From: Methanobacteriota archaeon
Lineage (GTDB): Archaea; Thermoplasmatota; E2; DHVEG-1
Assembly (NCBI GenBank): GCA_026394495.1
Contig: JAPKYE010000024.1
Span: 1 to 34,898, forward strand
Length of the DNA: 34,898 nt
Direction: 5' to 3'
The number at the start of each line of letters is the position of its first letter. Position 1 is the stretch's first letter. The translations under genes and the position numbers were made by a program. This document shows positions 1,173 to 29,968 of this stretch, piece by piece. The notes beneath the pieces were generated by a model. The model had not been told where the DNA came from. It did no database searches and saw nothing but the letters and a program-made list of their open reading frames with translations.

Positions 1173-1231
1173 AAAAATCATGAGGAAATCTTTATTAGAT
1201 AATCAATTCATCTCTAGTGGGGGTTGTTGTA

Positions 1232-1579
1232 ATGAATGAGGACGTAGTTTTTATCAAGAAAGGAGAATCAAAAAGCAAGATGGCACGGCCTGGAAAACTG
1301 TATCATTTGATGGTCAAATCGGAACATATGGAAACTATTATCGCAGAGCTTGATCCTCATGCAGAGTCACGATGGTTCCAACATGATGGTGAAGAAATGC
1401 ATGTCGTCATCCAAGGTGAATTGGAATACACAGTCGATGAGCATTCCTACAAACTCAATGAAGGCGATATTCTTTGGCATAAATCAAACTTGAAACATCG
1501 TGCAAAAAACATTGGCAGTGAAAAAGTCGTCTATATGACGATTGGGACGCCGCCGACGTTCATGTGGAGTATGTTATAA
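1232..1579 (+). CDS. Cupin-domain protein
   Basis: HDGEEMHVVIQGELEYTVDEHSYKLNEGDILWHKSNLKHRAKN is a cupin motif. The ORF track starts at GTG 1217; the internal ATG at 1232 is an alternative start. Confidence 0.8.
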   Translation: MNEDVVFIKKGESKSKMARPGKLYHLMVKSEHMETIIAELDPHAESRWFQHDGEEMHVVIQGELEYTVDEHSYKLNEGDILWHKSNLKHRAKNIGSEKVVYMTIGTPPTFMWSML

Positions 1580-2374
1580 TTCATCCACGTAGAAGCAATC
1601 GCCGCTTGTGATTGTTTTATGTTCCCCTGCATCAGTCTGGATTTGTAAGAAACCCGATGAGTCGATGCTTAATGCTTTACCGCGAATAGTCTCCTTCTTG
1701 GTTCGGATCTCTACATGTTTTCCCAATGTATCTGACCATAGGCTCCATTCACGAAGAAGCATCTCAGATTCTTCATGGAGGAACCTTGCGTAGTATTCTT
1801 CAAAGAATAAAAAGAACACGACGAGGAATTGTTCATAGTCAACTGGTTTTTTCAGCTCTTTTGACAATGACGTCGCAGATAGTAAAAGGTCTTTGGGTAA
1901 AGTTGTCACGTCAACGTTGAGGTTGACTCCTACACCTAGGACGACGTACGACGGTGACGTCGGACCTGCCTCGGATTCAAGGAGAATCCCTGAGACTTTC
2001 TTTCGTTTGATTCGAACATCGTTAGGCCATTTGATCGTAGGTTGTATCCCGAGGGTTTGGATGGTTTTCGCAACTGCTAGCGAAACAAGTAGTGGTAGCA
2101 CTGTTGTGGCACTTAGTGGTATCCTCGGCCGGAGGATAAATGAGAGATACAGTCCGCCTTTTGGCGACTACCACCGTCGGTCATATCGTCCTCGGCCTTG
2201 AAGCTGTGTCTTTGCTAAAACAACTGTTCCTTCTACTGCACCATTTTGTGCGAGGTATTTTGCCTCGGAATTTGTTGAGGATACCTCATCAAAAAACACG
2301 ATCTTTTTTACAAGTCCTCGTTGTAATCGCTGTATCATTGCTCCAGGATCGCTTGGGAAAATACGTTCGCGCAT
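1574..2374 (-). pseudogene. birA: Biotin--[acetyl-CoA/pyruvate carboxylase] ligase interrupted by one in-frame TAG (2168..2170, minus strand)
   Basis: ORFs 2168..2374 and 1574..2101 share one frame. The intervening 22 codons are open (SPKGGLYLSFILRPRIPLSATT). The joined protein reads ...TQLQGRGRYDRRW*SPKGGLYLSFILRPRIPLSATTVLPLLVSLAVAKTIQTLGIQPTIKWPNDVRIKRKKVSGILLE..., which is canonical biotin ligase. Pseudogene, readthrough and sequencing error are not distinguishable here. Confidence 0.85.
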
Positions 2375-2403: not shown

Positions 2404-3861
2404 TTATTTTTGTTGAGCATTTGCAGCTATGATGACTGCTTGTACAGCGGCCATCGCCGCAGCTGTTTTCGGAGTATTTGACTGTGCTTTGGTTTCTTTG
2501 ACGTATTCAACGACTTTTTCAAGGATCTGGTATCGCGGGATGAAACTAGTGTTATAATCGCCTGATTTCCAGTTGGGATGATCCATGACAACCTGATGAA
2601 ATGGGATATTATGTCGTACGCCGCCGATCTGAAATTCCCAGAGTGCTCGTTTCATCCGTTCAATCGCTCGTGGTCTATCCTCAGCCCAGACGATGAGTTT
2701 AGCGATCATTGAATCATAGAATGGTGGAATCGTGAATCCTTGGTACACACCTGAGTCGACCCGTATTCCTGGTCCGCTTGGTTCTGCGTAACGGAGTATT
2801 TTTGCTGGAGCGGGCATGAAGTTATTCAATGGATCTTCAGCGTTGACACGGCATTCGATCGCGTGCCCCCGCGGTTTTATGTCTTTTTGATCGTATTCAA
2901 GGGGAAGACCTGATGCGACACGTAGCTGCTCACGGGCAAGATCGACACCAGTTGTTATCTCGGTGATAGGGTGTTCCACCTGCAGACGCGTGTTCATCTC
3001 AAGGAAAAAATATTTACCATTTTTAAACATGAACTCACAGGTCCCTGCGTTGTAGTATCCAGCTGTTTTTGCAGCGAGAACTGCTTGTTCGCCGATCTCT
3101 TTACGTAACTCAGGCGTCAACGCTGTTGATGGTGTTTCCTCGATGAGTTTCTGATGGCGCCTCTGCACACTGCATTCCCGCTCGTAACAATGAATCAGAT
3201 GTTTTTTCTTATCGCCAATCACCTGAAATTCGATGTGACGGGGATCTTCGATGAATTTCTCGATAAAAACCGAATCATCGCCAAACGAGTTTTTTGCAAG
3301 CTGACGAACCGATACAAGTGCTTGTTCCATCTCAGGTTCGTTATCCACTTTTTTTATCCCGATACCACCGCCGCCAGCAGAGGCCTTAAGCATAATCGGA
3401 TACCCGATCTCATGTGCAATGTCTTTGGCGCGTTCATGATCTGCGATCGCCTCAGTTACCCCTGGAACCACAGAGACTCCTGCCTTGATCATGGATTTCT
3501 TTGATTCAATCTTTGAGCCCATGAGCTCCATTGCGGATACAGGTGGACCGATGAATTCGATCCCGTTTTTTTTGCACATCCCAGCAAACGTTGAGTTCTC
3601 CGCAAGAAAACCATATCCGGGGTGGATTCCTTCTGCTTTGCATTTCAATGCGACATCGATGAGTTTGTCTTTATTCAGATAGCTTTGGCTTGCTGGGCCA
3701 GGTCCGATATTGTATTTTTCATCTGCGTATTTGACAAATAGTGCGCTTTGATCTGCATCGGAATACACAGCAACTGTCGTGATTCCGAATTCTTTGCATG
3801 CGCGCATAATACGAACCGCAATTTCTCCGCGGTTTGCAATCAACACTTTATTGAGCATCAC
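2404..3861 (-). CDS. pycA: Pyruvate carboxylase subunit A (biotin carboxylase / ATP-grasp)
   Basis: MLNKVLIANRGEIAVRIMRACKEFG..., KASAGGGGIGIKKV, EMNTRLQVEHPITEITTGVDL: biotin carboxylase signatures. It sits directly downstream of pycB. Confidence 0.95.
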   Translation of the reverse strand: MMLNKVLIANRGEIAVRIMRACKEFGITTVAVYSDADQSALFVKYADEKYNIGPGPASQSYLNKDKLIDVALKCKAEGIHPGYGFLAENSTFAGMCKKNGIEFIGPPVSAMELMGSKIESKKSMIKAGVSVVPGVTEAIADHERAKDIAHEIGYPIMLKASAGGGGIGIKKVDNEPEMEQALVSVRQLAKNSFGDDSVFIEKFIEDPRHIEFQVIGDKKKHLIHCYERECSVQRRHQKLIEETPSTALTPELRKEIGEQAVLAAKTAGYYNAGTCEFMFKNGKYFFLEMNTRLQVEHPITEITTGVDLAREQLRVASGLPLEYDQKDIKPRGHAIECRVNAEDPLNNFMPAPAKILRYAEPSGPGIRVDSGVYQGFTIPPFYDSMIAKLIVWAEDRPRAIERMKRALWEFQIGGVRHNIPFHQVVMDHPNWKSGDYNTSFIPRYQILEKVVEYVKETKAQSNTPKTAAAMAAVQAVIIAANAQQK

Positions 3862-3882: not shown

Positions 3883-5709
3883 TTAGAGGATTTGCATGAG
3901 CAGATCCCCGTTTGCCACAGGCATTCCTTCTTTAACAAAGATTTCTTTTACTTCGCCTTCACGCTCAGAGCTGATTTCTTGTTCCATCTTCATTGCTTCA
4001 ACGGTTGCGATGATTGTGCCTTTCTTGACTTTATCTCCTTTTTTTACCTTGATTTTTAGGATTGTTCCCTGCATGTTGGATTTCACGCCGCCTTCGACAT
4101 CAGTGGGTTTCGCAGCTGCTGCAGCTGATCCTGCTCCGGCAACCATGAATCCTCCGGTGGGAATTACTTTTACTGTATAGGGTTCTCCGTCAACCTCAAC
4201 TTCGTACTCTGTCGGTATCTGCGCGGGCGTACCTTTGCGTTTCTCTGGTGGTTCGATTTCCAGCCACAGCTGTTTATGCTCGGGGAATGATTGTTTTATC
4301 ATCGCTCTTGTGAACTGATGATCGATAGGTAATGGGAGTTGATCTGAGGTGAACTCAGCACGTGCCTCTCCTTTCAAAAACTTTAGTCCAACCGCAGAAT
4401 ACAAAATATATGTCATGATGTCTTCGTCTTTTTTTATGAGTCGTCCACCATCGATCTCCATGAGTTCTTTCTTTTTCTCGTTCCATATGGGTTTCAAGAG
4501 GTCAGATGGTCGGCATTCAATGACTTCTTCTTTCCATTTCGGACCTAGAACCTTTTTCATGATCTCTGGGTGTATTTCTGCTGGTGGTTTCCCATACATT
4601 CCTCTGCAGTAGTCTTTTGTCTCTTTGGGGATAACCTTGTATCTGCCGTGCAGAACGTTCATCACTGCTTGGACACCGACGACTTGACTTGTTGGAGTGA
4701 CTAGTGGCGGGTATCCGAGTTCTTCGCGTACGCGGGCTGTTTCTGTGAGGATTTCTCGGTATTTGTCGCGGGCTCCTTGTTCTTCAAGTTGGAAGATTAA
4801 ATTTGAGAGCATGCCACCGGGGACTTGATGAAGGGTGACACTTGGGTCGACTTTTAATGCGTCGAATCGGTGGAGATGCCGGTATTTTTCCCATATTTTA
4901 AGGAAATATTCTCTGCATTCGATGAGAAGTGCAAGATCGTAGTTGGTATCCCATTCTGTTCCTTGTAACGCTGCGACAACGCTTTCTGTTGCGGGAGCAG
5001 CTGTGCCACCGGAGATCGGAGACATCGCGGTATCAAGGATATCTGCGCCTGCTTCAACAGCTCGTTGATATGCCATCCCTGTCATTCCGCTGGTACAATG
5101 AGAGTGAAGGTCCATGGGTAGTTTGATTCCTTCGTCTTTGCATCCTTTGATGATGTCGTAGGCACGTTTTGGGGAAATCATCCCTGCCATATCTTTTATG
5201 CAGAGTGAGTCTGCACCCATTTTTTCTAGTTGTTTGAATTTATCAACAAAATACTCAACAGTATGTATTGGGGAGATCGTATAACTAAGACATGCTTGGA
5301 CGTGTCCGCCGTTTTCTTTTGCTGCTTTCATCGGGGTTTCCATGTTTCGCAGGTCATTGAGTGCATCGAAAATACGGAAGTAGTCGATCCCGTTTTTCTT
5401 TGCGTAGTAGATGAATTTCTCTACGACGTCATCTGGGAAATTCCAGTATGCGACGATGTTCATCGCCCGTTCCAGCATCTGAAGTGGTGTGTTTGGCATT
5501 GCTTCTTTGAGTTTTTTTAGTCTCATCCAGGGGTCTTCGTTGAGGTAGCGTATTGCGACGTCAAAGGTTGCTCCGCCCCATATTTCAAGTGAGAAAAATC
5601 CGACTTGGTCTATTTTTGATGCTATGGGTAACATATCTTCTGTTCGCATTCGTGTCGCTAATAGTGACTGGTGTGCATCTCGAAATATCATTTCATGTAG
5701 TTGAACCAT
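3883..5709 (-). CDS. pycB: Pyruvate carboxylase subunit B (carboxyltransferase plus biotin carrier domain)
   Basis: FRDAHQSLLATRMRTEDMLPIA carboxyltransferase N-terminus and a C-terminal biotinyl domain with VEAMKMEQE. Confidence 0.95.
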   Translation of the reverse strand: MVQLHEMIFRDAHQSLLATRMRTEDMLPIASKIDQVGFFSLEIWGGATFDVAIRYLNEDPWMRLKKLKEAMPNTPLQMLERAMNIVAYWNFPDDVVEKFIYYAKKNGIDYFRIFDALNDLRNMETPMKAAKENGGHVQACLSYTISPIHTVEYFVDKFKQLEKMGADSLCIKDMAGMISPKRAYDIIKGCKDEGIKLPMDLHSHCTSGMTGMAYQRAVEAGADILDTAMSPISGGTAAPATESVVAALQGTEWDTNYDLALLIECREYFLKIWEKYRHLHRFDALKVDPSVTLHQVPGGMLSNLIFQLEEQGARDKYREILTETARVREELGYPPLVTPTSQVVGVQAVMNVLHGRYKVIPKETKDYCRGMYGKPPAEIHPEIMKKVLGPKWKEEVIECRPSDLLKPIWNEKKKELMEIDGGRLIKKDEDIMTYILYSAVGLKFLKGEARAEFTSDQLPLPIDHQFTRAMIKQSFPEHKQLWLEIEPPEKRKGTPAQIPTEYEVEVDGEPYTVKVIPTGGFMVAGAGSAAAAAKPTDVEGGVKSNMQGTILKIKVKKGDKVKKGTIIATVEAMKMEQEISSEREGEVKEIFVKEGMPVANGDLLMQIL

Positions 5710-5955: not shown

Positions 5956-7983
5956 ATGAAAAACATATTTTTGATTATCGTTGTAAGTATTCTTTTACTT
6001 TCTCCATCGGCAACATTGTTGTCGTCTGCAGGAAAAACTGGTGAAATCTCTGTTGGAACAATTGTTCTTTCGTATCGAAATGTGACCATGTATGCGCCTG
6101 CCGTTGCTCAGACTGACAACGGATATGTTGGGGTGATTTCAACAATCACGGTCACTATTCAGGATAATGGAAATGGACGGGTTTTTGTTGATACCCTTCC
6201 TCTGGCACAGATTGATATGCAGGGGTCTGCACGTTTGGCGGTAAAAGTCGCTGGTGCAATTGTGAAAAACGATAATACTTCGTCAATTGATCCGTCGCAA
6301 TACGATTATTTTTTTGTTGTTCGTACCTCATCCCCGGTCATTGGTGGTCCTTCAGCTGGTGCTGTGATGACTGTGGCGACAATAGCACTTCTTGAGAATT
6401 GGACTATTGATAATAGTACAGTGATGACGGGTATGATTGATCCTGATGGAAGCGTTGGTCCGATTGGTGGTATCCCTTATAAAATAGATGCGGCAAACTC
6501 TGTTGGTGCCCGGCGGTTTTTGATCCCGAAAGGACAGATGACGTATACGGAGACTGTGACAGAGACCACGGTGAATAATGGTAGGACGCAGATTGTCTCT
6601 CGTCCAGTGACACGGAACGTCTCGGAGTATGCGTTGACGAATTACGGCATTGAGGTAGCTGAAGTGGAAGATGTTAACGATGCGCTTCTGTACATGACGG
6701 GTCATATGTTTTTTACGCCTCAGGCAGACGGAGAGATTACGACAGAGCAGTATCGGGAATCAATGGAGCCTATTGCATCTATGCTGCTTACGCGGGCGAG
6801 GACTTCGTATGAAAACGCAACCAGTGCTTTTGATAATTCATCTATTCCAAATTACTATCCGTTTTATTATGAGAATCAAATCACTGATATCTATAATGAA
6901 GCAAAAACGAATCTTTTGCAATCGGAAAACTGGTTTGATCAAGAATTATTTTATACAAGTACAAGTAAGTCGTTTCAGTCATTGATTGGTTCTCGTTATG
7001 TGTCGTATGCGTGCGCGTATTTTAACTCAACGGATGAGAAACAGTATATTGTATCTCTGTTAAATGAGGCATTGGATCTTCATGGTATTCGAAGTAATGA
7101 TGCGAAGAACGCTGAGATTGTTGGTATGATTTCTCTTCAATGTGTTGGGGCAGCGCAGACCAGGGTTTTTGAGGCTCAGACATATCTTGATGATGCGCAG
7201 AGTAGTATCGACAAAAATGATTATCTTACTGCGTTGTATAAGATAGCGTTTGCGGTGGAACGCAGTGAGAGCGTCGGCTGGTGGTTGCGTATTGGGTTGC
7301 AGTTCAATGATACAAATGATATCAATGCGTCTTCTCTTTCGATGTTAACTGAGGAGTATATTGATGATGCCCAGCAGGCGATAACGTATTCAGGTGTGAT
7401 TCTTGATGAGGTCGGGCAGTCGTCGCAGTATCTTACCGATGCGGAAACGTTTCTAAGTTCTGCGCGTGATGAATTATCTGATGGGTATCCAGCGGCAGCG
7501 TTGTTCAAGTCACTGGAGGCGCTCGTGAATGCGAATCTTGCGTTGGAGCTTGTGGATAGTTCGACAAAGGATAAAATTGATCGTGCGCGAGAGCGAGCAA
7601 GTATCAGTATTGGTGCGCCTGTGCTCGCAGTGAGTTATTATGAGTATGCTCAGAGTCTTGCGAATGAATCGTCGTTTGACAGTGCGATTGTATATTACAA
7701 ATATAGTGATCTGATCGCGGGTGCGTTGCGTCTGACAACAAGTGTTTCAGGTAGTCAGTCTTCTAGGTATATTGGTGTGCCTGAGTTTTTGGTGCGGTCA
7801 TGGTGGTCCGGAATATTTGCGTCACTTGTATTTGTTCTGTTGTTTTTCTTGCTTGGTGGTCTTACTGGGTTTGGGATTGGTTTAATTGTCTGGGGGTTTT
7901 TCTCAAAAAGGCAGAAGAATAAATATTTCTCTGATCAGCAGATGCCGCGCAGCATTGAGGATTATTACAAAAAAAACAGGTAG
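5956..7983 (+). CDS. Membrane-anchored, exported Lon-like (S16-fold) serine protease, COG1750-like, without AAA+ domain
   Basis: N-terminal signal peptide, Lon-type protease domain with GGPSAGAVM (catalytic Ser) and GGIPYKIDAA (catalytic Lys), Ala-rich helical middle and C-terminal TM helix. Stop is TAG. Confidence 0.85.
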   Translation: MKNIFLIIVVSILLLSPSATLLSSAGKTGEISVGTIVLSYRNVTMYAPAVAQTDNGYVGVISTITVTIQDNGNGRVFVDTLPLAQIDMQGSARLAVKVAGAIVKNDNTSSIDPSQYDYFFVVRTSSPVIGGPSAGAVMTVATIALLENWTIDNSTVMTGMIDPDGSVGPIGGIPYKIDAANSVGARRFLIPKGQMTYTETVTETTVNNGRTQIVSRPVTRNVSEYALTNYGIEVAEVEDVNDALLYMTGHMFFTPQADGEITTEQYRESMEPIASMLLTRARTSYENATSAFDNSSIPNYYPFYYENQITDIYNEAKTNLLQSENWFDQELFYTSTSKSFQSLIGSRYVSYACAYFNSTDEKQYIVSLLNEALDLHGIRSNDAKNAEIVGMISLQCVGAAQTRVFEAQTYLDDAQSSIDKNDYLTALYKIAFAVERSESVGWWLRIGLQFNDTNDINASSLSMLTEEYIDDAQQAITYSGVILDEVGQSSQYLTDAETFLSSARDELSDGYPAAALFKSLEALVNANLALELVDSSTKDKIDRARERASISIGAPVLAVSYYEYAQSLANESSFDSAIVYYKYSDLIAGALRLTTSVSGSQSSRYIGVPEFLVRSWWSGIFASLVFVLLFFLLGGLTGFGIGLIVWGFFSKRQKNKYFSDQQMPRSIEDYYKKNR

Positions 7984-8040
7984 TATCGAGGTTTATTAAT
8001 TTTAATACTGGGTTGTTGCATAAAGATTATAGAACTCTGA

Positions 8041-8211
8041 ATGGGTCAAAAACTTGATCTTTTAGTATGAAAACCTCTTTTTGAGTTCAGCATCCGAAAT
8101 CTGAAATGTAAGGTATATGATGATGAAATTCTTATTCAGGAGTTGGCAAAGCAACAGAAAGATATTACTGAGGAATTAAAAGTCATAATGCCTAAAAAGT
8201 TGGGAATTTAG
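8041..8211 (+). pseudogene. Small disrupted ORF (in-frame TGA at 8068..8070) of unknown family
   Basis: ATG 8041 frame: MGQKLDLLV*KPLFEFSIRNLKCKVYDDEILIQELAKQQKDITEELKVIMPKKLGI*. Composition looks coding-like, but no family was recognised. Confidence 0.25.
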
Positions 8212-11077: not shown

Positions 11078-11659
11078 ATGGATAGGAAAATACATGTTTT
11101 AGTTATAACGCTAGTGATGATCTTGTCTGCTTTTGTTTTCATACCAAGTATACCAATTGCAAAAGCCACTATTTTGTATGTTGGTGGTACCGGTGGCGGT
11201 AACTATAGCAAGATTCAAGATGCAATTGACAATGCATCGAGTTGAGATACGATTTTTTTGTTTGCAAATACTTATCATGAGCATTTAACAATAAACAAAG
11301 CTTATTTAACAATAACCGGAGAAGATAAATATTTAACAATAATAGATGGAAGCGGAACGGGAAGGATTTTTAATCTTATAGGCCCTTATCAAGCAGGTCA
11401 TATAACGATTGAATGTCTAACGATTCAGGATTGTCAATATGGTGTATATTCATATCTGCAAGTTGACTCTACAACAGTTCAGAATTGTGTTATTCATAAT
11501 TGTGCCGCAGTAGGTTTTTATAATTACAATGGCTGGTATAATTACATCGATTATTGTGAGATTTACGATTGTGGTGGGGTAGGAGTACAAATGGCTCATC
11601 CAGGGGATCAAAATATTTTGAATAAAAATACTTATGTCAACACGGGTCTTTACGAGTAA
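11078..11659 (+). pseudogene. Secreted beta-helix (NosD-type) protein gene with in-frame TGA at 11243..11245
   Basis: ATG 11078 frame: MDRKIHVLVITLVMILSAFVFIPSIPIAKATILYVGGTGGGNYSKIQDAIDNASS*DTIFLFANTYHEHLTINKAYLTITGEDKYLTIID... The frame is shared with ORF 11258..11659. The stop falls at the Gly of the N(P/S)GDT motif seen in the 8263..10869 protein. Confidence 0.75.
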
Positions 11660-19515: not shown

Positions 19516-20400
19516 TTACAGTTTATATAAATATATCGGTACAAATAAAAAACGTTTTTCTTTACCTCCCATCTGTAGAATAGCACCATTAATTGAATCA
19601 ATCTCTGTTTTTGTTTCCCTCTGCACGCTCTGTAGCATAGATGAGTAATTCTCAGCGGTCATACGAACTACTTCTTTTGTCTTCTCCGCCATCTCCTCAT
19701 AGGTAACCGTTATCTTCTCAGATATTGCAACAACGGTAGATTCTTTACATATCTGATTCATAACATTCATAAGGAGTGGGTTCTCAAGCAGATATCCATT
19801 TTTACAAAAAAACAGTGCAGTGAGCGGATTAATACTTGAATTAATGATTGTTTTTATCCACAACTCACGCAGAAAATTTGTGGTTTTAATTGTTTCGATG
19901 CCTGCTTCGTTAAATAAAGAAACAAGCTCTGCTACACGAGTGGTGTTCTCGTCTGTTAATTCCCCAAGAATCGTTTGGCCGAGCCCCGTATGACGAATCA
20001 ATCCAGGTTTCACAAGTACCGCACCATGTGTTGTTACGCCGCCAAGGATGTTTTTTATGTCAACTGTTTTTTTTATTTTTTCGATGTTGTCAAGTCCATT
20101 CTGAAGTGATATCACAATAGTTTTTTTGGTGATAAGTGATTTAGCCATTTGTATCGCTTCTTCGGTATCGTATGATTTCACGGTGATGATCAAGACATCA
20201 GGTTGGATGTGCACATTATCAATTGAGTCTTCTGCGGTAACATGTACGGTCGTCAGTGTTTTCCCGGTAATGGTTAACCCTGATGTTTTGATGGCTGTGA
20301 TATGTGGTGTTCTTCCAACTAACACCACGTTATTTTTTTGTGAAAGCAATCCCCCAAACAATGATCCTATTGCACCGGCACCAAGAACAACGATGTTCAT
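19516..20400 (-). CDS. panE: 2-dehydropantoate 2-reductase (ketopantoate reductase) family
   Basis: MNIVVLGAGAIGSLFGGLLSQ, VKSYDTEEAI, ISLQNGLDN, LGGVTTHGA, LRELWIKTIINSSINPLTAL. Confidence 0.85.
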   Translation of the reverse strand: MNIVVLGAGAIGSLFGGLLSQKNNVVLVGRTPHITAIKTSGLTITGKTLTTVHVTAEDSIDNVHIQPDVLIITVKSYDTEEAIQMAKSLITKKTIVISLQNGLDNIEKIKKTVDIKNILGGVTTHGAVLVKPGLIRHTGLGQTILGELTDENTTRVAELVSLFNEAGIETIKTTNFLRELWIKTIINSSINPLTALFFCKNGYLLENPLLMNVMNQICKESTVVAISEKITVTYEEMAEKTKEVVRMTAENYSSMLQSVQRETKTEIDSINGAILQMGGKEKRFLFVPIYLYKL

Positions 20401-21350
20401 ACGAGAAGTCCTACCTCCTGGCTTTTTTGATTGATAAAATCTTTTGTCATCGCAAGTAAGGGGTACAATGTAGGAACTGGTATATTATTTTTTAAATTAG
20501 TGCTTTTTTCGATGACATCAAAAGAAGAGTCAGCGAACGTTAACCCAGATACCACTGCGTCACATCCCTGGTCAAGAACATTCTTTGAAATTTCTTCATT
20601 CAGATGGTTTGATTGTGAAAGATTTAATAAATTTGATGGCGCGTTCCATTCTTTGAGAAACGAAAATATTTTTTCTTTTTGTGTGTCGTCAATTATCGCC
20701 ATAATCGGTGTGCATCCGCGCCGCATCAGATACCATCCTGCAAGAAGAGACCAAGAGTTTTCAACAAGTACTATTACTTTTCCCTGTGTCCCTAGTGGTA
20801 ATCCACCACTGCCTGGGATTCGTTTTGTGAAAAGAAATGCGTTTTTGTTTCTGATATCAATCCCTATTTCTACGGTTGGATGTGTTAAATCCACCGCTGC
20901 ATCGGTATTTTTTCGTATGTCATCTCCAACACGAATGGCGACTTCCTGGCTGGTGAACGGATGATTCCCTGTTCGTGTAACTCGTAATGCAAACCGATCG
21001 TTCTCTCGTATGGTTTGTTTTGCGACAGAAACTGCAGAATCGGATATTTGTTGCATCTCTGCTGTTGTCTGTATAGATGGGCTTATCGATGTGATTCCAA
21101 AGATATGTTGCAGGATGGTGGTTCCCTGTTTGATTTCATCAGTAAACAAGTATATGCGTCCCCATTCTTTGATAATCCGGCATGTAAGTCCTCTGCGTTC
21201 AAATGCTTGACTGATGTTTCTGATTAGTGTTGATTCGAATTGTTTTCGCACATACGGGCTTTTCAGAGATAGCTCACCGTATCGTATCAGGATCAAATCG
21301 TATTTCATTTCAAAAACAGCATCATCCATAGGATACATTAACGTTTTCAC
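20397..21350 (-). CDS. ThiI-like THUMP protein with degenerate PP-loop domain
   Basis: LILIRYGELSLKSPYVRKQFESTLIRNI (ThiI N-terminus), THUMP region, and a PP-loop region where SGGxDS is replaced: KVIVLVENSWSLLAGWYLMRRGC. Overlaps the panE start. Confidence 0.75.
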   Translation of the reverse strand: MKTLMYPMDDAVFEMKYDLILIRYGELSLKSPYVRKQFESTLIRNISQAFERRGLTCRIIKEWGRIYLFTDEIKQGTTILQHIFGITSISPSIQTTAEMQQISDSAVSVAKQTIRENDRFALRVTRTGNHPFTSQEVAIRVGDDIRKNTDAAVDLTHPTVEIGIDIRNKNAFLFTKRIPGSGGLPLGTQGKVIVLVENSWSLLAGWYLMRRGCTPIMAIIDDTQKEKIFSFLKEWNAPSNLLNLSQSNHLNEEISKNVLDQGCDAVVSGLTFADSSFDVIEKSTNLKNNIPVPTLYPLLAMTKDFINQKSQEVGLLV

Positions 21351-21353
21351 AGT

Positions 21354-23270
21354 TTACTGCATGGCTAAAGATGCCTCGTAGGTATACCAGAGATGCCGGA
21401 GAAGTTTCAATGCTTCAAAATATATTTGAGGGACATATTTAAGCCCGATTTCAAACGTACTGCATAACCTGCGCAACTCAAAAGCAACAAACGGTTCTTG
21501 AATATGGGATACCGCTGGTTTCTGAAAAGCATCTATTATACGTTGCTCTATGATATTGACATTTGTCATCAGATCTTCCATGTGTTGCAAGCGATCTGAT
21601 AACTCAGCTGTAAGGTTTTGTATCTGCTGATTCGTCGAATTGTTTGAATAATTAACAAGAGGATGGAACTGCTCCAGTTTTTCGATTATTCCTATAGCTT
21701 TTTCACAATATTCAGAATAGATGTCACAGAAATAATATGGATATGCGCTGAGCCGGTGTCCATTCAATATTATGAAACTCATGTTAATATAATCTGATGT
21801 AATAGTTGATACCTCCTCGGTATTGTTTTGCAAAATAGATAGGTTTGTGTTCAGTCTCTGTATCCTTGTTTTTGTCTCATTCAATACATGTTCCCATGAA
21901 TCACTAAAATGTACATTCATGGTTTTTTCGCCAAATGCATCGAGTGACGAAATCGGAAAACCCATCGATGTTATGATTTGTGCGCCTTCTTGTGATGTCG
22001 CATAAAAGAGTGCATTATAGATTATTCGTCTCCCGTAATATGGATCTCCGTCCCAGTGTATATTATCAAAGATAAGGGAGATATTGTTGGTAAACTCTGG
22101 ATGTGTGCTGAACAGAACTACGTTTCCCATTCCAAAACGAGAGGTAACCCAGCTCGGAGTGTTCAGGACTTTGTTTCTCAATAGTATGCTGTTTGGGTCA
22201 CTTTCTGATCCGTTTTCGAGATTCTGTATCGTTGCAATTTGTTGGCTGTTTTTTCCAAGCCAGATGAACCAGGGTCCTTCAAAGAACTCTTTCATGGTGT
22301 GATTCAGGCCATATGACAAGGGATGATTGGTGTCGGTAATAGTTGTTGTTGCAACAAACAATGATGTTTCTATTATTTTTTTCTGATTCATGAACGAGTC
22401 GCTAATTGATAAACTGATACAAGGAGGAAAGCATGGTAGATTTGGGTTGTATGCGCGAAGAAGAGAAATAAACGGAGTCGGAAAAAGTAGTCCAGATGAT
22501 CCAGCTATTGCTCCGTAGCAGGAGCCGATGTATCCTCCGCCGTTGCGGACAAACATGCGAATTGCGTTGTTTGCCTGTGTGTTTGAAAGACTTTTTAGTT
22601 GTTCTAAGATCGACCCGGGGAGCGGATCATACGGCCACATGAACACGTTGAAGTCGTTGTTGTTCAATTGAACAGATGTTTCGTTATCGAGTAAGAATTC
22701 CATGGTGAGAAACCCGCCTGCTTCAGCGATCTGTAGATAGCAGGGCCAGCTGTATCGCGTTGGTACCCCGAGGTGTTGGACGATTTTTGGTTCAGTTAAT
22801 GGATACGCACTGATTGTCAGTGGGTTTACAAGATAATAGACTGGTACATGGATCGTGTTTTCTTGTTCGATTTCACTTGTCGTATTATAATCATGAATAA
22901 TCGCAGTGGTCAAAGCAGTGATGTTGGTATCGGATGAAAATGGGATGACAAACGTACCCTTTGGGTGGGTATCTGTCCTGATGACGCCTTCGTCATTGAT
23001 TTCTTTTGTGTCTGCAGTGAAATCTGTTGCAGCCCAGTAAACGGGGATATGTTCTCGGAGTAGATCGTTAATCATGTTTCTGACGCAACCATTGACAATT
23101 GTTTCTTGAGTGGTGTCGTTTCCTGTGGGAAGAGGAACAAGAAACCCATATGAAACATTCGATATGTCTTTGTTTGTTGACTGTGCGGAAAAAAAGAAAA
23201 CTGGTGCGAGAAGAAGAAGTAATATGAGGATGCTGAGTGATTGATGATAGTGTAGGTTTGATTTCGTAAT
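21354..23270 (-). CDS. Exported class I GATase-like (BPL_N-like) protein; ATT start proposed, 65 codons upstream of the track start
   Basis: FVRNGGGYIGSCYGA (nucleophile elbow with Cys) and GNVVLFSTHPEFT (His-x-Glu). The upstream frame is open back to a TAG and encodes a signal peptide (ITKSNLHYHQSLSILILLLLLAPVFFFSAQSTNKDISNVSYGFLVPLPTGNDTTQETIVNGCVRN-M...). AAGGAGG lies 7 nt before the ATT. Confidence 0.7.
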   Translation of the reverse strand: MTKSNLHYHQSLSILILLLLLAPVFFFSAQSTNKDISNVSYGFLVPLPTGNDTTQETIVNGCVRNMINDLLREHIPVYWAATDFTADTKEINDEGVIRTDTHPKGTFVIPFSSDTNITALTTAIIHDYNTTSEIEQENTIHVPVYYLVNPLTISAYPLTEPKIVQHLGVPTRYSWPCYLQIAEAGGFLTMEFLLDNETSVQLNNNDFNVFMWPYDPLPGSILEQLKSLSNTQANNAIRMFVRNGGGYIGSCYGAIAGSSGLLFPTPFISLLRAYNPNLPCFPPCISLSISDSFMNQKKIIETSLFVATTTITDTNHPLSYGLNHTMKEFFEGPWFIWLGKNSQQIATIQNLENGSESDPNSILLRNKVLNTPSWVTSRFGMGNVVLFSTHPEFTNNISLIFDNIHWDGDPYYGRRIIYNALFYATSQEGAQIITSMGFPISSLDAFGEKTMNVHFSDSWEHVLNETKTRIQRLNTNLSILQNNTEEVSTITSDYINMSFIILNGHRLSAYPYYFCDIYSEYCEKAIGIIEKLEQFHPLVNYSNNSTNQQIQNLTAELSDRLQHMEDLMTNVNIIEQRIIDAFQKPAVSHIQEPFVAFELRRLCSTFEIGLKYVPQIYFEALKLLRHLWYTYEASLAMQ

Positions 23271-23520: not shown

Positions 23521-23676
23521 TTGGTTGATAATCTATTGTAAACCAAAGATTCAACGAATGCCTCTTCGTATACTTTCAGTTCCCTCATCAAAGGTTTTAA
23601 AAGGATGTTAGGGGGATTCAGGGTCTTAAAAAAAAGAGGTCGTCCTTTTCTCTCTTTTCAAGGGGGTTTGCATCAG

Positions 23677-26493
23677 TTGAAAAATATCGTCATCCGCGGT
23701 GCTCGGGAGCATAATCTGAAAAATATTACGGTAGAGCTGCCTAGAGATAAATTGATTGTGATTACCGGTATTTCAGGTTCTGGTAAATCCACGCTTGCGT
23801 TTGATACGATTTATGCGGAAGGGCAGCGTCGGTATGTTGAGTCGTTGTCTGCGTATGCGCGGCAGTTTCTCGGGCTGATGAACAAACCTGATGTGGACAG
23901 CATCGAGGGACTGTCTCCTGCGATTTCCATTGAGCAGAAAACCACGAGTAAAAACCCGCGAAGTACTGTTGGTACCATTACTGAGATTTATGATTACCTG
24001 CGGTTGTTGTACGCGCGGATTGGTACGCCTTATTGTCCGACGCATAACATCAAAATCGAGTCGCAGTCTGCTGAGAAGATAGCAGATCGTATCTCAAAGG
24101 AACTGAAAGGTAATGTGACGATTCTATCACCGATCATCCGGCAGAAAAAGGGAACATATGAGCAGTTGTTTAAGGATTTGAACAAAGATGGTTACACGCG
24201 GGTGCGGGTGAATAAAACCCTATTTCGGACCGATGAGGAAATCAAATTGGAGCGGTACAAAAAACATGATATCGACATTGTCGTCGACCGGATCAGCGTC
24301 TCAGATGGTCCTCGTCTGGTTGAGGCCGTTGAAAATGCGTTGAAAAAATCCGAGGGTCTTCTCATGGTACTTGATTCTAAGGATGTTGAGCATACGTATT
24401 CGTCGAAGATGGCGTGTCCTTTTTGTGGTTTTTTGTTTGAGGAGCTTCAGCCTCGGATGTTTTCTTTTAACAACCCGTATGGTGCTTGTGAGGAGTGTCA
24501 TGGTCTGGGTATCAAGATGGAGTTTGACCAGGATCTGATCATCCCTGATAAAGAAAAAAGTATTGCTGATTGTTCGATTGCATTGTATAAAACTATTCGT
24601 GATGGGTGGCGTAATCATTATCTTGGCGCGGTCGCTAAGCATCATGGTTTTGATATTTTCACGCCGATTAAGGATCTCAACGAAGAGCAGTATAAGGCGT
24701 TGATGTATGGGTCTGGGGAGCGGATAAAATTTGATATTTCAAGTAAGAACGGTGATGCACATTGGTCTCATGTGGGCTCATGGGAAGGATTGATCCCGCA
24801 GTCGGAGCGTCTGTATAAACAAACAGAGTCTGAGTATCGTCGGCAGGATATGGAGCGGTTCATGCGGATTTCTGACTGTCCGGCATGTAACGGGAAGCGG
24901 TTGAAACAAAAAGTGTTATCCGTGAAAATCGCTGAGAAGTCGATTGTTGACATCACGGATTTGTCAATTAAACAATGTATCCAGTTTTTTTATGGGCTGG
25001 ATCTGTCACGTAAACACGAGGAGATCGCGCGGCTTATATTAAAGGAGGTTCGTGCGCGTCTGAAGTTTCTTGATAACGTCGGGTTGAATTATTTGACGCT
25101 TTCTCGCGCTGCGGGTACGCTGTCTGGTGGTGAGGCGCAGCGAATAAGGCTTGCGACGCAGATTGGTTCTAACCTTGTCGGTGTGTTGTATATTCTTGAT
25201 GAGCCGTCGATCGGGTTGCATCAGCGTGACAACAAAAAACTGATTGATACGTTATGGAAACTGCGTGATCTGGGCAACACATTGATTGTTGTTGAGCATG
25301 ATGAGGAGATGATTCGTCATGCTGATTATGTGGTTGATATGGGGCCTGGTGCTGGGCTGCATGGTGGTAAAATCATCGCAGAAGGAACACCCGCCGAGAT
25401 AGAGGATAATCCGCGGTCGTTGACTGGTAAGTATCTTTCTAAAAAGCTTCAGATCCCGGTTCCTGAGAAACGTAGGATATCGAAGAAATATATTCATATG
25501 CGTGGTTGCAGTGAAAATAACCTCAAGAACATCACGGTTCATATCCCGCTTGGTGTTTTATCTGTGGTGACTGGTGTGTCTGGGAGCGGCAAGTCCACGT
25601 TGGTGAACGATATTTTGTATAAGGGACTGATGAAAAAACTGCATGATTCAAAGGATATCCCGGGGAAACATGAGTCGATTGAGTCTGATCTTGAGATTGA
25701 TAAAGTCATCATCATTGATCAAAGTCCGATAGGTCGGACTCCGCGGAGTAATCCTGCGACGTATACGAAGATATTTGATGAGGTCCGCAGCATGTTTGCG
25801 AAAACATCGGAGGCGAAACTGCGTGGGTATCAGGCTGGCAGGTTTTCGTTTAATGTTCATGGTGGTCGTTGTGAAACCTGTCAGGGTGATGGTCTGATTA
25901 AGATTGAGATGAATTTTTTGCCTGATATCTACATCGAATGTGAGGAATGCAAGGGGATGCGGTATAATCGGGAGACTCTTGAGGTGTTGTATAAGGGTAA
26001 ATCCATCGCTGATGTGCTGGGTATGAGTGTGGAAGGGGCGTTGAAGTTGTTTGAGAATATTCCTTCGATTCGCAAAAAACTTGAGACGCTGTCTCGTGTT
26101 GGTCTTGAGTATATTAAACTTGGTCAGAGTGCTACGACGCTTTCTGGTGGTGAAGCCCAACGTATTAAGCTTACTAGGGAGCTAGCAAAGAAAAGTACGG
26201 GGAAGACTGTGTATCTTCTTGATGAGCCGACGACTGGGTTGCATTTTCATGATGTTGGTAAACTGATTGATGTGTTGAATGGTCTGGTGGATAAGGGTAA
26301 TACGATCGTGGTTATTGAGCATAACATCGAGGTGGTGAAATCCGCTGATTACATCGTGGATCTTGGGCCTGATGGCGGTGATGCAGGTGGACTGCTTGTT
26401 GCGGTTGGTACTCCTGAGGATGTCGCAAGGAATAAGAAGAGTTATACTGGTGAGATTCTTCAGCAGGTGCTGCTAAAGAGAAGGGTTGTATGA
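23677..26493 (+). CDS. uvrA: Excinuclease ABC subunit A
   Basis: (M)[64 protein letters not shown]; two ABC signature motifs ([23 protein letters not shown]); zinc motifs. Likely TTG start at 23677 after agggggt; the track start is ATG 23605. Confidence 0.93.
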
Positions 26494-28040
26494 TTGATCT
26501 GAGCATGGTGCCGTCCAACCCCGGGTGTTACCTGTTTCGTGATACCAAAAAAAATATTATTTATGTGGGGAAGGCTAAGAACCTAAGAAAACGTGTTGGT
26601 AGTTATTTTCAGAAGCAGCCGATGGATCCGAAAACAACCCAGCTGGTTTCATGTATTGATGTGGTTGAGTATATCGCCACAGACAATGAGCTAGAAGCGT
26701 TTATCCTTGAGAACACGTTGATTAAGAAGCATCAGCCGAAATACAACATTGATTTGAAGGATGCGAAAACCTATGCGTATATTTTGTTGACGGATGAACA
26801 ATTTCCGCGTCTTCTGATCGCTCGGAAGAAAACCGGTGAGGGGACGTTTTTTGGTCCGTTTGTTTCTGGCATTGAACGTGATTATATTCTTGATGCGTTG
26901 AGGACGTCGTTTATGCTGCGGACGTGTAATAAAATGCCTAAGCGGCCGTGTCTACGGTATCATATTTCATTGTGTGATGCACCCTGCGTTGGTTTTGTTT
27001 CCCAGTCTGAATACAATGAAAAAATCCAGAAGATCGAGATGATTCTTTTGGGTAAAACCAAGGAGCTTCTCGGTAAACTAGATGCTGAGATGAAACAATA
27101 TGCGTTTGCTGAGGAGTTTGAGCAGGCGTTGCATGTTCGTAAGCAAAAAGAGGCGATTGAGTATTTGCATGAGCGGCAGAATATGGCTCGTCCGCAGTGG
27201 TACGACGAAGACGTGATTAATTTTCTAATACATGATAATTCCGTGTATTTGATGTTGTTTAATATTTATAAGGGGATGTTGACGAATAAAAACGAGTTTG
27301 TATTTCCGTATCAGAATGATTTTTTTGAGGAGTTTATCGTGCAGTATTACTCAGAGAATCCTGTGCCCGCTGATCTTATTGTGCCGTTTAGGTTTTCTGA
27401 TGCGTTGAAGGTCTTTCTCTCTGAGAAGAAACATAAAAAGGTGCATGTGACGGTTCCGCAGAAAGGACCCAAGAAACAATTACTTGATTTGGTATTGAAA
27501 AACATTGAATTAGCATTTTTTGGTGATGCGGTGAAGGTAGAAGAGCTACAGAAAAAGCTCAACCTGCAGGAGTCACCCAGTGTGATTGAGTGTTTTGATA
27601 TTTCTCATATTTCGGGGACGTCGACGGTCGGCTCCATGGTGCAGTTTAGAAATGGTAAACCTGATAAAAGCAATTATCGTCGTTTTAAGATTCGGACGGT
27701 TGATGGCGTTGATGATGTTGCGGGTGTCGCTGAGGTGGTGCGAAGAAGGTATACCCGTCTGCGGCAGGAGAACACTTCATTGCCTAATTTGATTGTTATT
27801 GATGGCGGGCGTGGTCAGCTGAATAGTGCTCTTCATGAGCTGCAGAAGCTAGGTCTAGGTATCCCGGTGATTTCGCTAGCAAAACAGTTTGAGGAGATTT
27901 ATATCCCTGGTAATCCTTTGCCGGTTCGTCTTGATCGTAAAGATAAAGCGTTGTTGTTTCTTATGGAGATCCGCGATGAGGCGCATCGTTTCGCGATTCA
28001 GTATAATCGTTTGTTAAGGAAGAAGAAATTGATAGCATGA
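26490..28040 (+). CDS. uvrC: Excinuclease ABC subunit C lacking the C-terminal HhH region
   Basis: GIY-YIG PGCYLFRDTKKNIIYVGKAKNLRKRVGSYF; UVR-like region; IECFDISHISGTSTVGSMVQFRNGKPDKSNYRRFKI; VIDGGRGQLNSA. Ends RDEAHRFAIQYNRLLRKKKLIA. Confidence 0.93.
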   Translation: MIDLSMVPSNPGCYLFRDTKKNIIYVGKAKNLRKRVGSYFQKQPMDPKTTQLVSCIDVVEYIATDNELEAFILENTLIKKHQPKYNIDLKDAKTYAYILLTDEQFPRLLIARKKTGEGTFFGPFVSGIERDYILDALRTSFMLRTCNKMPKRPCLRYHISLCDAPCVGFVSQSEYNEKIQKIEMILLGKTKELLGKLDAEMKQYAFAEEFEQALHVRKQKEAIEYLHERQNMARPQWYDEDVINFLIHDNSVYLMLFNIYKGMLTNKNEFVFPYQNDFFEEFIVQYYSENPVPADLIVPFRFSDALKVFLSEKKHKKVHVTVPQKGPKKQLLDLVLKNIELAFFGDAVKVEELQKKLNLQESPSVIECFDISHISGTSTVGSMVQFRNGKPDKSNYRRFKIRTVDGVDDVAGVAEVVRRRYTRLRQENTSLPNLIVIDGGRGQLNSALHELQKLGLGIPVISLAKQFEEIYIPGNPLPVRLDRKDKALLFLMEIRDEAHRFAIQYNRLLRKKKLIA

Positions 28041-29968
28041 ATGCGTTTAAGTTAACTACGAATATGACGCCGAAGGGCTCTCAGCCTGAGGCGATACGTC
28101 AATTGGTCAGTGGTATTCAGAAGAATTATCGTTATCAAACTCTCCTTGGGGTTACGGGAAGTGGCAAAACTTTTTCCCTTGCGAACGTAATTAATCAGGT
28201 TCAGCGGCCTGCATTGGTTATTGCTCATAATAAGACGCTTGCTGCGCAGCTTTATAGTGAGTTTAAAGAATTTTTCCCAGAGAACCATGTGGAGTATTTT
28301 GTCTCGTATTATGATTATTATCAGCCTGAGTCCTATATCCCGCAACGTGATTTGTATATTGAGAAAGATGCGGATGTGAACCCGAAGATTGAGCAGATGC
28401 GTCTTGCTGCGACCGCGTCGTTGTTGTCGGCTCGTGATGTTATTGTGGTTGCTTCGGTCTCATGTATTTACAGTGTGGGAAATCCCAAAGATTATCTGGG
28501 TATGAGTTTTGAAATCCGCAAAGGGATGCAGCTTGTGCGCAATGATCTTCTTCATATGCTTTTGGATATTCAGTATGAGCGCAATGATCTTGATCTTCAG
28601 CCTGGGCGTTTTCGTGTGAAAGGCGATACGGTTGATGTAGTCCCTGGGTATTATCAGAATATTTTACGATTTGAGTTGTGTGGTGATCGTGTTGAGCAGG
28701 TCAAGGAGATCGACAAGATCACCGGTGAGACGCTGGATATACTTGAGTATGTGTTTGTGTACCCTGCGAAGCATTTCGTGATCCCTGAAGAGAGTAAGAA
28801 ACGTGCGATAAAATCGATTAAGCTGGAGTTGGAGGAGCGGCTGCCGCAGTTGGGTATGTTGGAGGCGCATCGTCTGAAACAGCGGACGCTCTATGACCTG
28901 GAGATGATTGAGGAGACTGGGTCGTGTAAAGGGATTGAGAATTATTCTGCGCATTTTGATGGTCGGAAGTCTGGTGAGAAGCCGTATTGTCTGATCGATT
29001 ATTTTCCCAGTGATTTTCTTATATTTATTGATGAGAGTCATCGCACGGTTCCGCAGGTTCGTGGGATGGAGCATGGTGATTTTACTCGCAAGAAGTCGTT
29101 GATTGATTATGGTTTTCGTCTGCCGAGTGCGTATGATAATCGGCCGTTGAAGTTTTTTGAGTTTGAGCAGTTGATGCGATCTGTCGTGTTTGTTTCTGCG
29201 ACGCCTGCTGAGTATGAGTTGGGCCGGTCGCAGCAGGTTGCGGAGCAGATTATCCGTCCGACTGGTCTGGTTGATCCGCCCGTCGAGGTTCGTGGTACAC
29301 GTGGTCAGATTGATGATCTTATTTCTGAGATTTTGTCGACGGTGAAGCGTAAAGATCGTGTGTTGGTGACGACGTTGACGAAGCGTCTTGCTGAGGAGCT
29401 ATCTGAGTATCTTGCGGCAAAGAAGATCAAAACCCGGTATCTGCATTCTGAGATTGATACACTTGAGCGCTCTGAGATTATTCGGGAGCTTCGCCTTGGT
29501 GTGTTTGATGTGCTTGTGGGGATTAATTTGTTGCGTGAGGGTATTGATATCCCTGAGATAGGGTTCATTGGTATTCTTGATGCGGACAAAGAGGGTTTTT
29601 TGCGTGATGCGAGTAGTCTTATTCAGATTATTGGTCGTGCTGCGCGTAATGTGAACTCCCGGGTTGTATTGTATGCTGATGTGTTGACGGATTCGATTCG
29701 AAAAGCATTGGATGAGACGAATCGGCGGCGTAGTATTCAGCTGGAGTATAATAAAAAACATGGGATTATCCCGACGACGATTATTAAACCGGTTAAGGAA
29801 AAGGTTGTGGAGATCACGGATACGAAGTATATCCCAAAGGCTGATATTCCTGCGTTGATTGTGAATGTGGAGCTTGAGATGAGGGCTGCTGCAGATAATC
29901 TTGATTTTGAAAAAGCGATTATGCTACGGGATAGGGTTAATAAATTGAAGCAGACGTTAGTAAAATAG
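28037..29968 (+). CDS. uvrB: Excinuclease ABC subunit B
   Basis: LLGVTGSGKTFSLANVI, DYYQPESYIPQRDLYIEKDADVN, IDESHRTVPQ, LREGIDIPEIG, QIIGRAARN, and a C-terminal UVR motif. Stop is TAG. Confidence 0.95.
   Translation: MNAFKLTTNMTPKGSQPEAIRQLVSGIQKNYRYQTLLGVTGSGKTFSLANVINQVQRPALVIAHNKTLAAQLYSEFKEFFPENHVEYFVSYYDYYQPESYIPQRDLYIEKDADVNPKIEQMRLAATASLLSARDVIVVASVSCIYSVGNPKDYLGMSFEIRKGMQLVRNDLLHMLLDIQYERNDLDLQPGRFRVKGDTVDVVPGYYQNILRFELCGDRVEQVKEIDKITGETLDILEYVFVYPAKHFVIPEESKKRAIKSIKLELEERLPQLGMLEAHRLKQRTLYDLEMIEETGSCKGIENYSAHFDGRKSGEKPYCLIDYFPSDFLIFIDESHRTVPQVRGMEHGDFTRKKSLIDYGFRLPSAYDNRPLKFFEFEQLMRSVVFVSATPAEYELGRSQQVAEQIIRPTGLVDPPVEVRGTRGQIDDLISEILSTVKRKDRVLVTTLTKRLAEELSEYLAAKKIKTRYLHSEIDTLERSEIIRELRLGVFDVLVGINLLREGIDIPEIGFIGILDADKEGFLRDASSLIQIIGRAARNVNSRVVLYADVLTDSIRKALDETNRRRSIQLEYNKKHGIIPTTIIKPVKEKVVEITDTKYIPKADIPALIVNVELEMRAAADNLDFEKAIMLRDRVNKLKQTLVK

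Follow-up and report, generated by a model that had tools for sequence, protein, structure and literature searches.

A single in-frame TAG interrupts the only biotin protein ligase gene (birA) found in the draft genome of an uncultured Methanobacteriota archaeon. The gene lies on the minus strand of the window, by which we mean the whole stretch of 34,898 nucleotides that was analysed, and its 266 codons are otherwise complete, with TAG at codon 69 (Table 1). This triplet looks like an ordinary stop that arose through a single base change, not like a recoded codon. We infer that the base in question is wrong or not fixed, and it is probable that the TAG reflects either a consensus error in the draft genome or a null allele present at low frequency.

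Two open reading frames on the minus strand, at 2168..2374 (68 amino acids, ending in GRGRYDRRW at the TAG stop) and at 1574..2101 (175 amino acids, with a GTG start), share one frame, and read-through translation confirms the original prediction that a single TAG divides them. Reading through the triplet yields a product of 266 residues in which codon 69 is the stop and is followed by SPKGGLYLSFIL. The 22 open codons first described beyond the TAG correspond to the distance to the first in-frame start, the GTG at 2101, whereas the frame itself remains open for 197 codons on the 3′ side.

Searches of Pfam and NCBIfam match both sides of the TAG to one protein, the biotin protein ligase (BPL) that had been proposed. 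The read-through product matches PF03099 over residues 31-151 (74 bits) and PF02237 over residues 216-261 (50.1 bits), each against a cut-off of 21, and TIGR00121 over residues 25-261 (197.5 bits against a cut-off of 83.1). Characteristic motifs of Group I BPLs are also present, with the biotin loop GRGRxxRxW located before the TAG and the lysine motif KWPND after it, while the single uninterrupted reading frame of this group is broken at codon 69. Pfam gave no extra N-terminal match that would correspond to a DNA-binding domain. The Group I enzyme of Pyrococcus horikoshii (PDB 1wnl and others) has the same domain order and length class and shares the GxGRxxRxW loop, KWPND and BPL_C, and the 1wnl sequence aligns to residues 23-260 of the window protein with an E value of 2.8e-30. 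The motif RKWESPEGGL, given for Pyrococcus in the original prediction, does occur in PDB 1wnl. There the enzyme carries Glu where the window has its stop (RKWESPEGGL versus RRW-TAG-SPKGGL).

Table 1. Positions of the interrupted birA gene and its neighbours in the window.
Feature	Position	Strand	Basis
In-frame TAG, birA codon 69	2168..2170	-	ORF list, read-through translation, alignment of relatives
birA codons 1-68, ATG start, ending in the biotin-loop motif GRGRYDRRW (2171..2197)	2171..2374	-	ORFs, Pfam
birA codons 70-266 and stop TAA, with KWPND (2018..2032) and the BPL_C domain	1574..2167	-	ORFs, Pfam, alignment
GTG, first in-frame start past the TAG, putative restart	2099..2101	-	ORF list
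pycA, biotin carboxylase subunit, upstream of birA	2404..3861	-	NCBIfam, gene-order comparison
pycB, carboxyltransferase and biotin carrier domain with VEAMKM (3985..4002)	3883..5709	-	ORFs, NCBIfam
Cupin-domain gene, tail to tail with birA, an arrangement common to many relatives	1217..1579	+	Pfam, gene order

The ligase gene is the third of a pycB-pycA-birA cluster, so that the carrier protein with the VEAMKM site lies near birA as predicted. A relative of birA is encoded in 79 of the 119 genomes searched, a count that includes the window's own, and the closest of those listed belong to the same family as the window, none being from its species or genus. The best matches, about 15 in number, are 42-52% identical, and all but a few come from this family. 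They have the same gene order, with pycA upstream of birA and, in many, the cupin gene tail to tail. This conserved arrangement indicates that the window gene is the native birA and a true orthologue. Nearly all birA-bearing relatives have a single match per genome. No relatives were found in viral contigs, and a scan of genome contigs returned distant ones only.

Elsewhere in the window, uvrA, uvrC and uvrB, identified by sequence, are arranged head to tail at 23605..29968(+), and UvrC looks short at 516 amino acids. A ThiI-like protein of 317 amino acids (20397..21350, minus strand) has ThiI_fer and THUMP matches and runs into the next gene, and no match to the ThiI catalytic domain was found in it. 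At 11258..11659(+) a short right-handed beta-helix ORF (133 amino acids, TTG start) may be what is left of a larger surface protein.

No relative that can be aligned at codon 69 has a stop there, which bears out the expectation of a sense codon at this position. The residue is Glu in nine of the 14 close orthologues with data, Gln in three, Thr in one and Phe in one, and further relatives carry H, S, V, Y, A, I or L. Orthologues from the same archaeal family (L005-L021) resemble the window gene in the order of pycA and birA, often in the adjoining cupin gene, and in all invariant residues, but none shares its stop. Interior stops had been flagged in five relatives (G008, G013, G016, G034 and G096), none of them at codon 69; those in G013 and G034 are the natural end of the gene, and the matches in G008, G016 and G096 contained no stop once realigned. 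Because the residue varies among relatives, GAG to TAG and CAG to TAG are both one-step origins. The proposed change from GAG is indeed a single step, although it is not uniquely the simplest, since the change from CAG is also a single step and is a transition.

An archaeal host and a TAG codon might suggest that the triplet encodes pyrrolysine, an alternative raised in the original prediction. However, the searches contradict it. In the window's genome, which is about 93% complete, PylS gave three weak matches, all below the cut-off and identified as HisRS, PheRS alpha and AsnRS, and PylD gave nothing over the cut-off. PylS is also absent from the 59 relatives examined together with this genome, a set of 60 in all, while the control genome of Methanosarcina acetivorans was detected. 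Among the 43 tRNA matches in the 93% complete genome, none has a CUA anticodon and thus no tRNA-Pyl (pylT) was recovered. ARAGORN typed most of the 43, and the four that remained are Met(CAT) and Leu(TAA), assigned by ARAGORN with introns, and Gln(CTG) and Tyr(GTA), assigned by eye, the last being cut by a contig end. A pattern scan for CUA tRNAs produced fewer matches than its reversed control, and one match inside a tRNA on C120 proved to be tRNA-Arg(TCT).

Moreover, TAG is an ordinary stop in this genome. An 820 kb sample contains 519 long non-overlapping ORFs, of which 81 end in TAG, 303 in TAA and 135 in TGA, and aRF1 is present with the canonical motifs NIKS, YRCDSEF and GGQ. Pyrrolysine-containing genes of archaea, the methylamine methyltransferases, share with birA an in-frame TAG followed by conserved sequence. 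Unlike these genes, the window gene encodes another type of enzyme, occurs without pyrrolysine machinery, and has its TAG at a position where relatives neither conserve the codon nor hold an invariant residue. A literature search on pyrrolysine and BPL found background only. We therefore regard pyrrolysine insertion as exceedingly unlikely.

Near-cognate readthrough of the TAG at useful levels could also supply a full-length ligase with a substituted residue. Position 69 takes many residues in relatives, such that any inserted amino acid might work, and the frame downstream is fully constrained. However, the missing CUA anticodon among the 43 tRNAs, the canonical aRF1, the lack of this stop in any relative and the absence of any Rfam family of note near the TAG all argue against readthrough, and we consider it improbable. 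Slightly more doubtful still is the specific scenario in which the TAG is real and fixed and the sole ligase is made by UAG readthrough at this tolerant residue, without pyrrolysine machinery, so as to keep ligase levels low.

Split expression from GTG 2101, also listed as an alternative, would require the 68-residue N-terminal piece to function jointly with a C-terminal piece that begins at this codon. Although this GTG is in frame and lies 22 codons past the TAG, it falls inside the conserved domain, and no relative has a split gene. Residues 69-91 would be missing from both pieces, and with them eight invariants (S70, P71, G73, G74, Y76, S78, L81 and P83), which makes split expression highly improbable.

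The gene shows none of the marks of a decayed pseudogene: it has no additional lesions, has lost no invariant residue and is not changing at an accelerated rate. All 49 columns that are invariant in 15 orthologues are kept in the window birA, 12 before the TAG and 37 after it. The two terminal branches of the window, 0.67 for birA and 0.087 for pycA, are in proportion to each other and lie within the spread of its relatives, for which the corresponding values are 1.35 and 0.082 (L020) and 1.10 and 0.114 (L021). Because every invariant residue is retained and the gene is not evolving fast, the TAG either arose very recently or has not become fixed. About 86 nonsynonymous sites lie in the 37 invariant codons downstream of it, from which we roughly estimate, assuming neutrality after loss, that any loss is younger, at the 5% level, than about 0.035 neutral substitutions per site. 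Of the true pseudogene suggested earlier, an old one is excluded by the full retention of invariants, while a very recent null is a rival explanation.

A functional ligase should be needed by this organism. Outside the window, on G000 contig C26, there is a second biotin carboxylase subunit with a separate carrier (VIEAMKM; 7963-8163, L202), indicating that the organism has two biotin-dependent enzymes. The genome also encodes a BioY importer, and the presence of both carboxylases and of BioY implies a requirement for the ligase. By eye, a third Biotin_lipoyl match is GcvH-like and adjoins a GcvT-like gene. The original prediction reasoned that loss of birA should matter unless a second copy exists, and a search at E<=10 of the roughly 93% complete genome turned up no second BirA, so that loss should indeed matter. 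One other PF03099 member (C88:4587-4910) was rejected as a second BirA, being lipoate-ligase-like and located beside lipA (lipoyl synthase). The window also encodes a 573-residue protein (21354..23075, minus strand) that matches PF09825 (BPL_N, the biotin-protein ligase N-terminal domain) and has no ligase domain. BPL_N is not the ligase domain, and this protein is thus no backup for BirA. Another ligase may reside in the missing part of the genome.

Interruptions of this kind are infrequent in the window's genome and are not specific to TAG, and the one in birA is more than a chance pattern. A scan of coding statistics in the 820 kb sample found 22 same-frame stops, birA included, that have coding-like flanks and no start within eight codons, and most seem to be boundaries between two successive genes. 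The few others that resemble true interruptions, identified by eye, are a TAA in a Gly-rich ORF and TGA stops in a short ORF and in a transposase-like frame. Stretches of one relative, G006, gave 91 orthologue comparisons (28,462 aligned residues), in which birA has the sole convincing mid-gene stop; two others occur right where the alignment begins, and another is probably in a putative antisense shadow ORF. At L141:19175 (G000 contig C39), a TAA stands in a very long Gly-rich frame, flanked by 1362 and 274 open codons, and the 238 codons that follow the TAA contain no start. At L151:2489 (G000 contig C42, minus strand), a transposase-like frame with two in-frame stops appears by eye to be a decayed insertion sequence.

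Two explanations rank ahead of all others, with a consensus error or minority allele the most likely and a very recent null allele second. The latter would be a real loss tolerated by the strain or population, for example because the biotin enzymes are not needed in its habitat or because a ligase is encoded in the missing 7% of the genome. The TAG does stand in the assembled sequence and terminates translation in this genome, and a few other interrupted frames do occur in the 820 kb sample. Against a real loss, the 197 downstream codons carry no further damage and keep 37 of 37 invariants, pycA and pycB are intact, and no second BirA was found; we judge such a loss possible but unlikely.

The analysis establishes the stop itself, orthology, the sense codons of relatives, full constraint, and the absence from the assembly of pyrrolysine machinery and of a second ligase. 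An error or a low-frequency allele is favored by these sense codons, by the retained invariants and the birA branch in proportion to pycA, by the single BirA beside two biotin carboxylases and BioY, by the ordinary use of TAG as a stop and by the isolation of the interruption, although substitution errors seldom enter the consensus where an assembly is well covered, which counts against an error. Under this preferred explanation, birA would be the sole biotin protein ligase gene here, and its product would attach biotin to PycB and to the second carrier protein. One base change would have created an ordinary TAG stop, and the assembly would have picked it up as a consensus error or as a low-frequency null allele. 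In the population a working allele is most likely the prevailing one, given that the gene carries no further sign of decay and that the cell has two biotin enzymes and no ligase but this one.

The main consequence concerns annotation, as the gene would be called as two fragments or as a pseudogene, and the organism would be mistaken for one that cannot attach biotin. Beyond annotation, the TAG matters little. However, if the stop were fixed and PycB were still biotinylated, birA would be a surprising case of UAG readthrough without pyrrolysine, in an archaeal gene that is probably essential.
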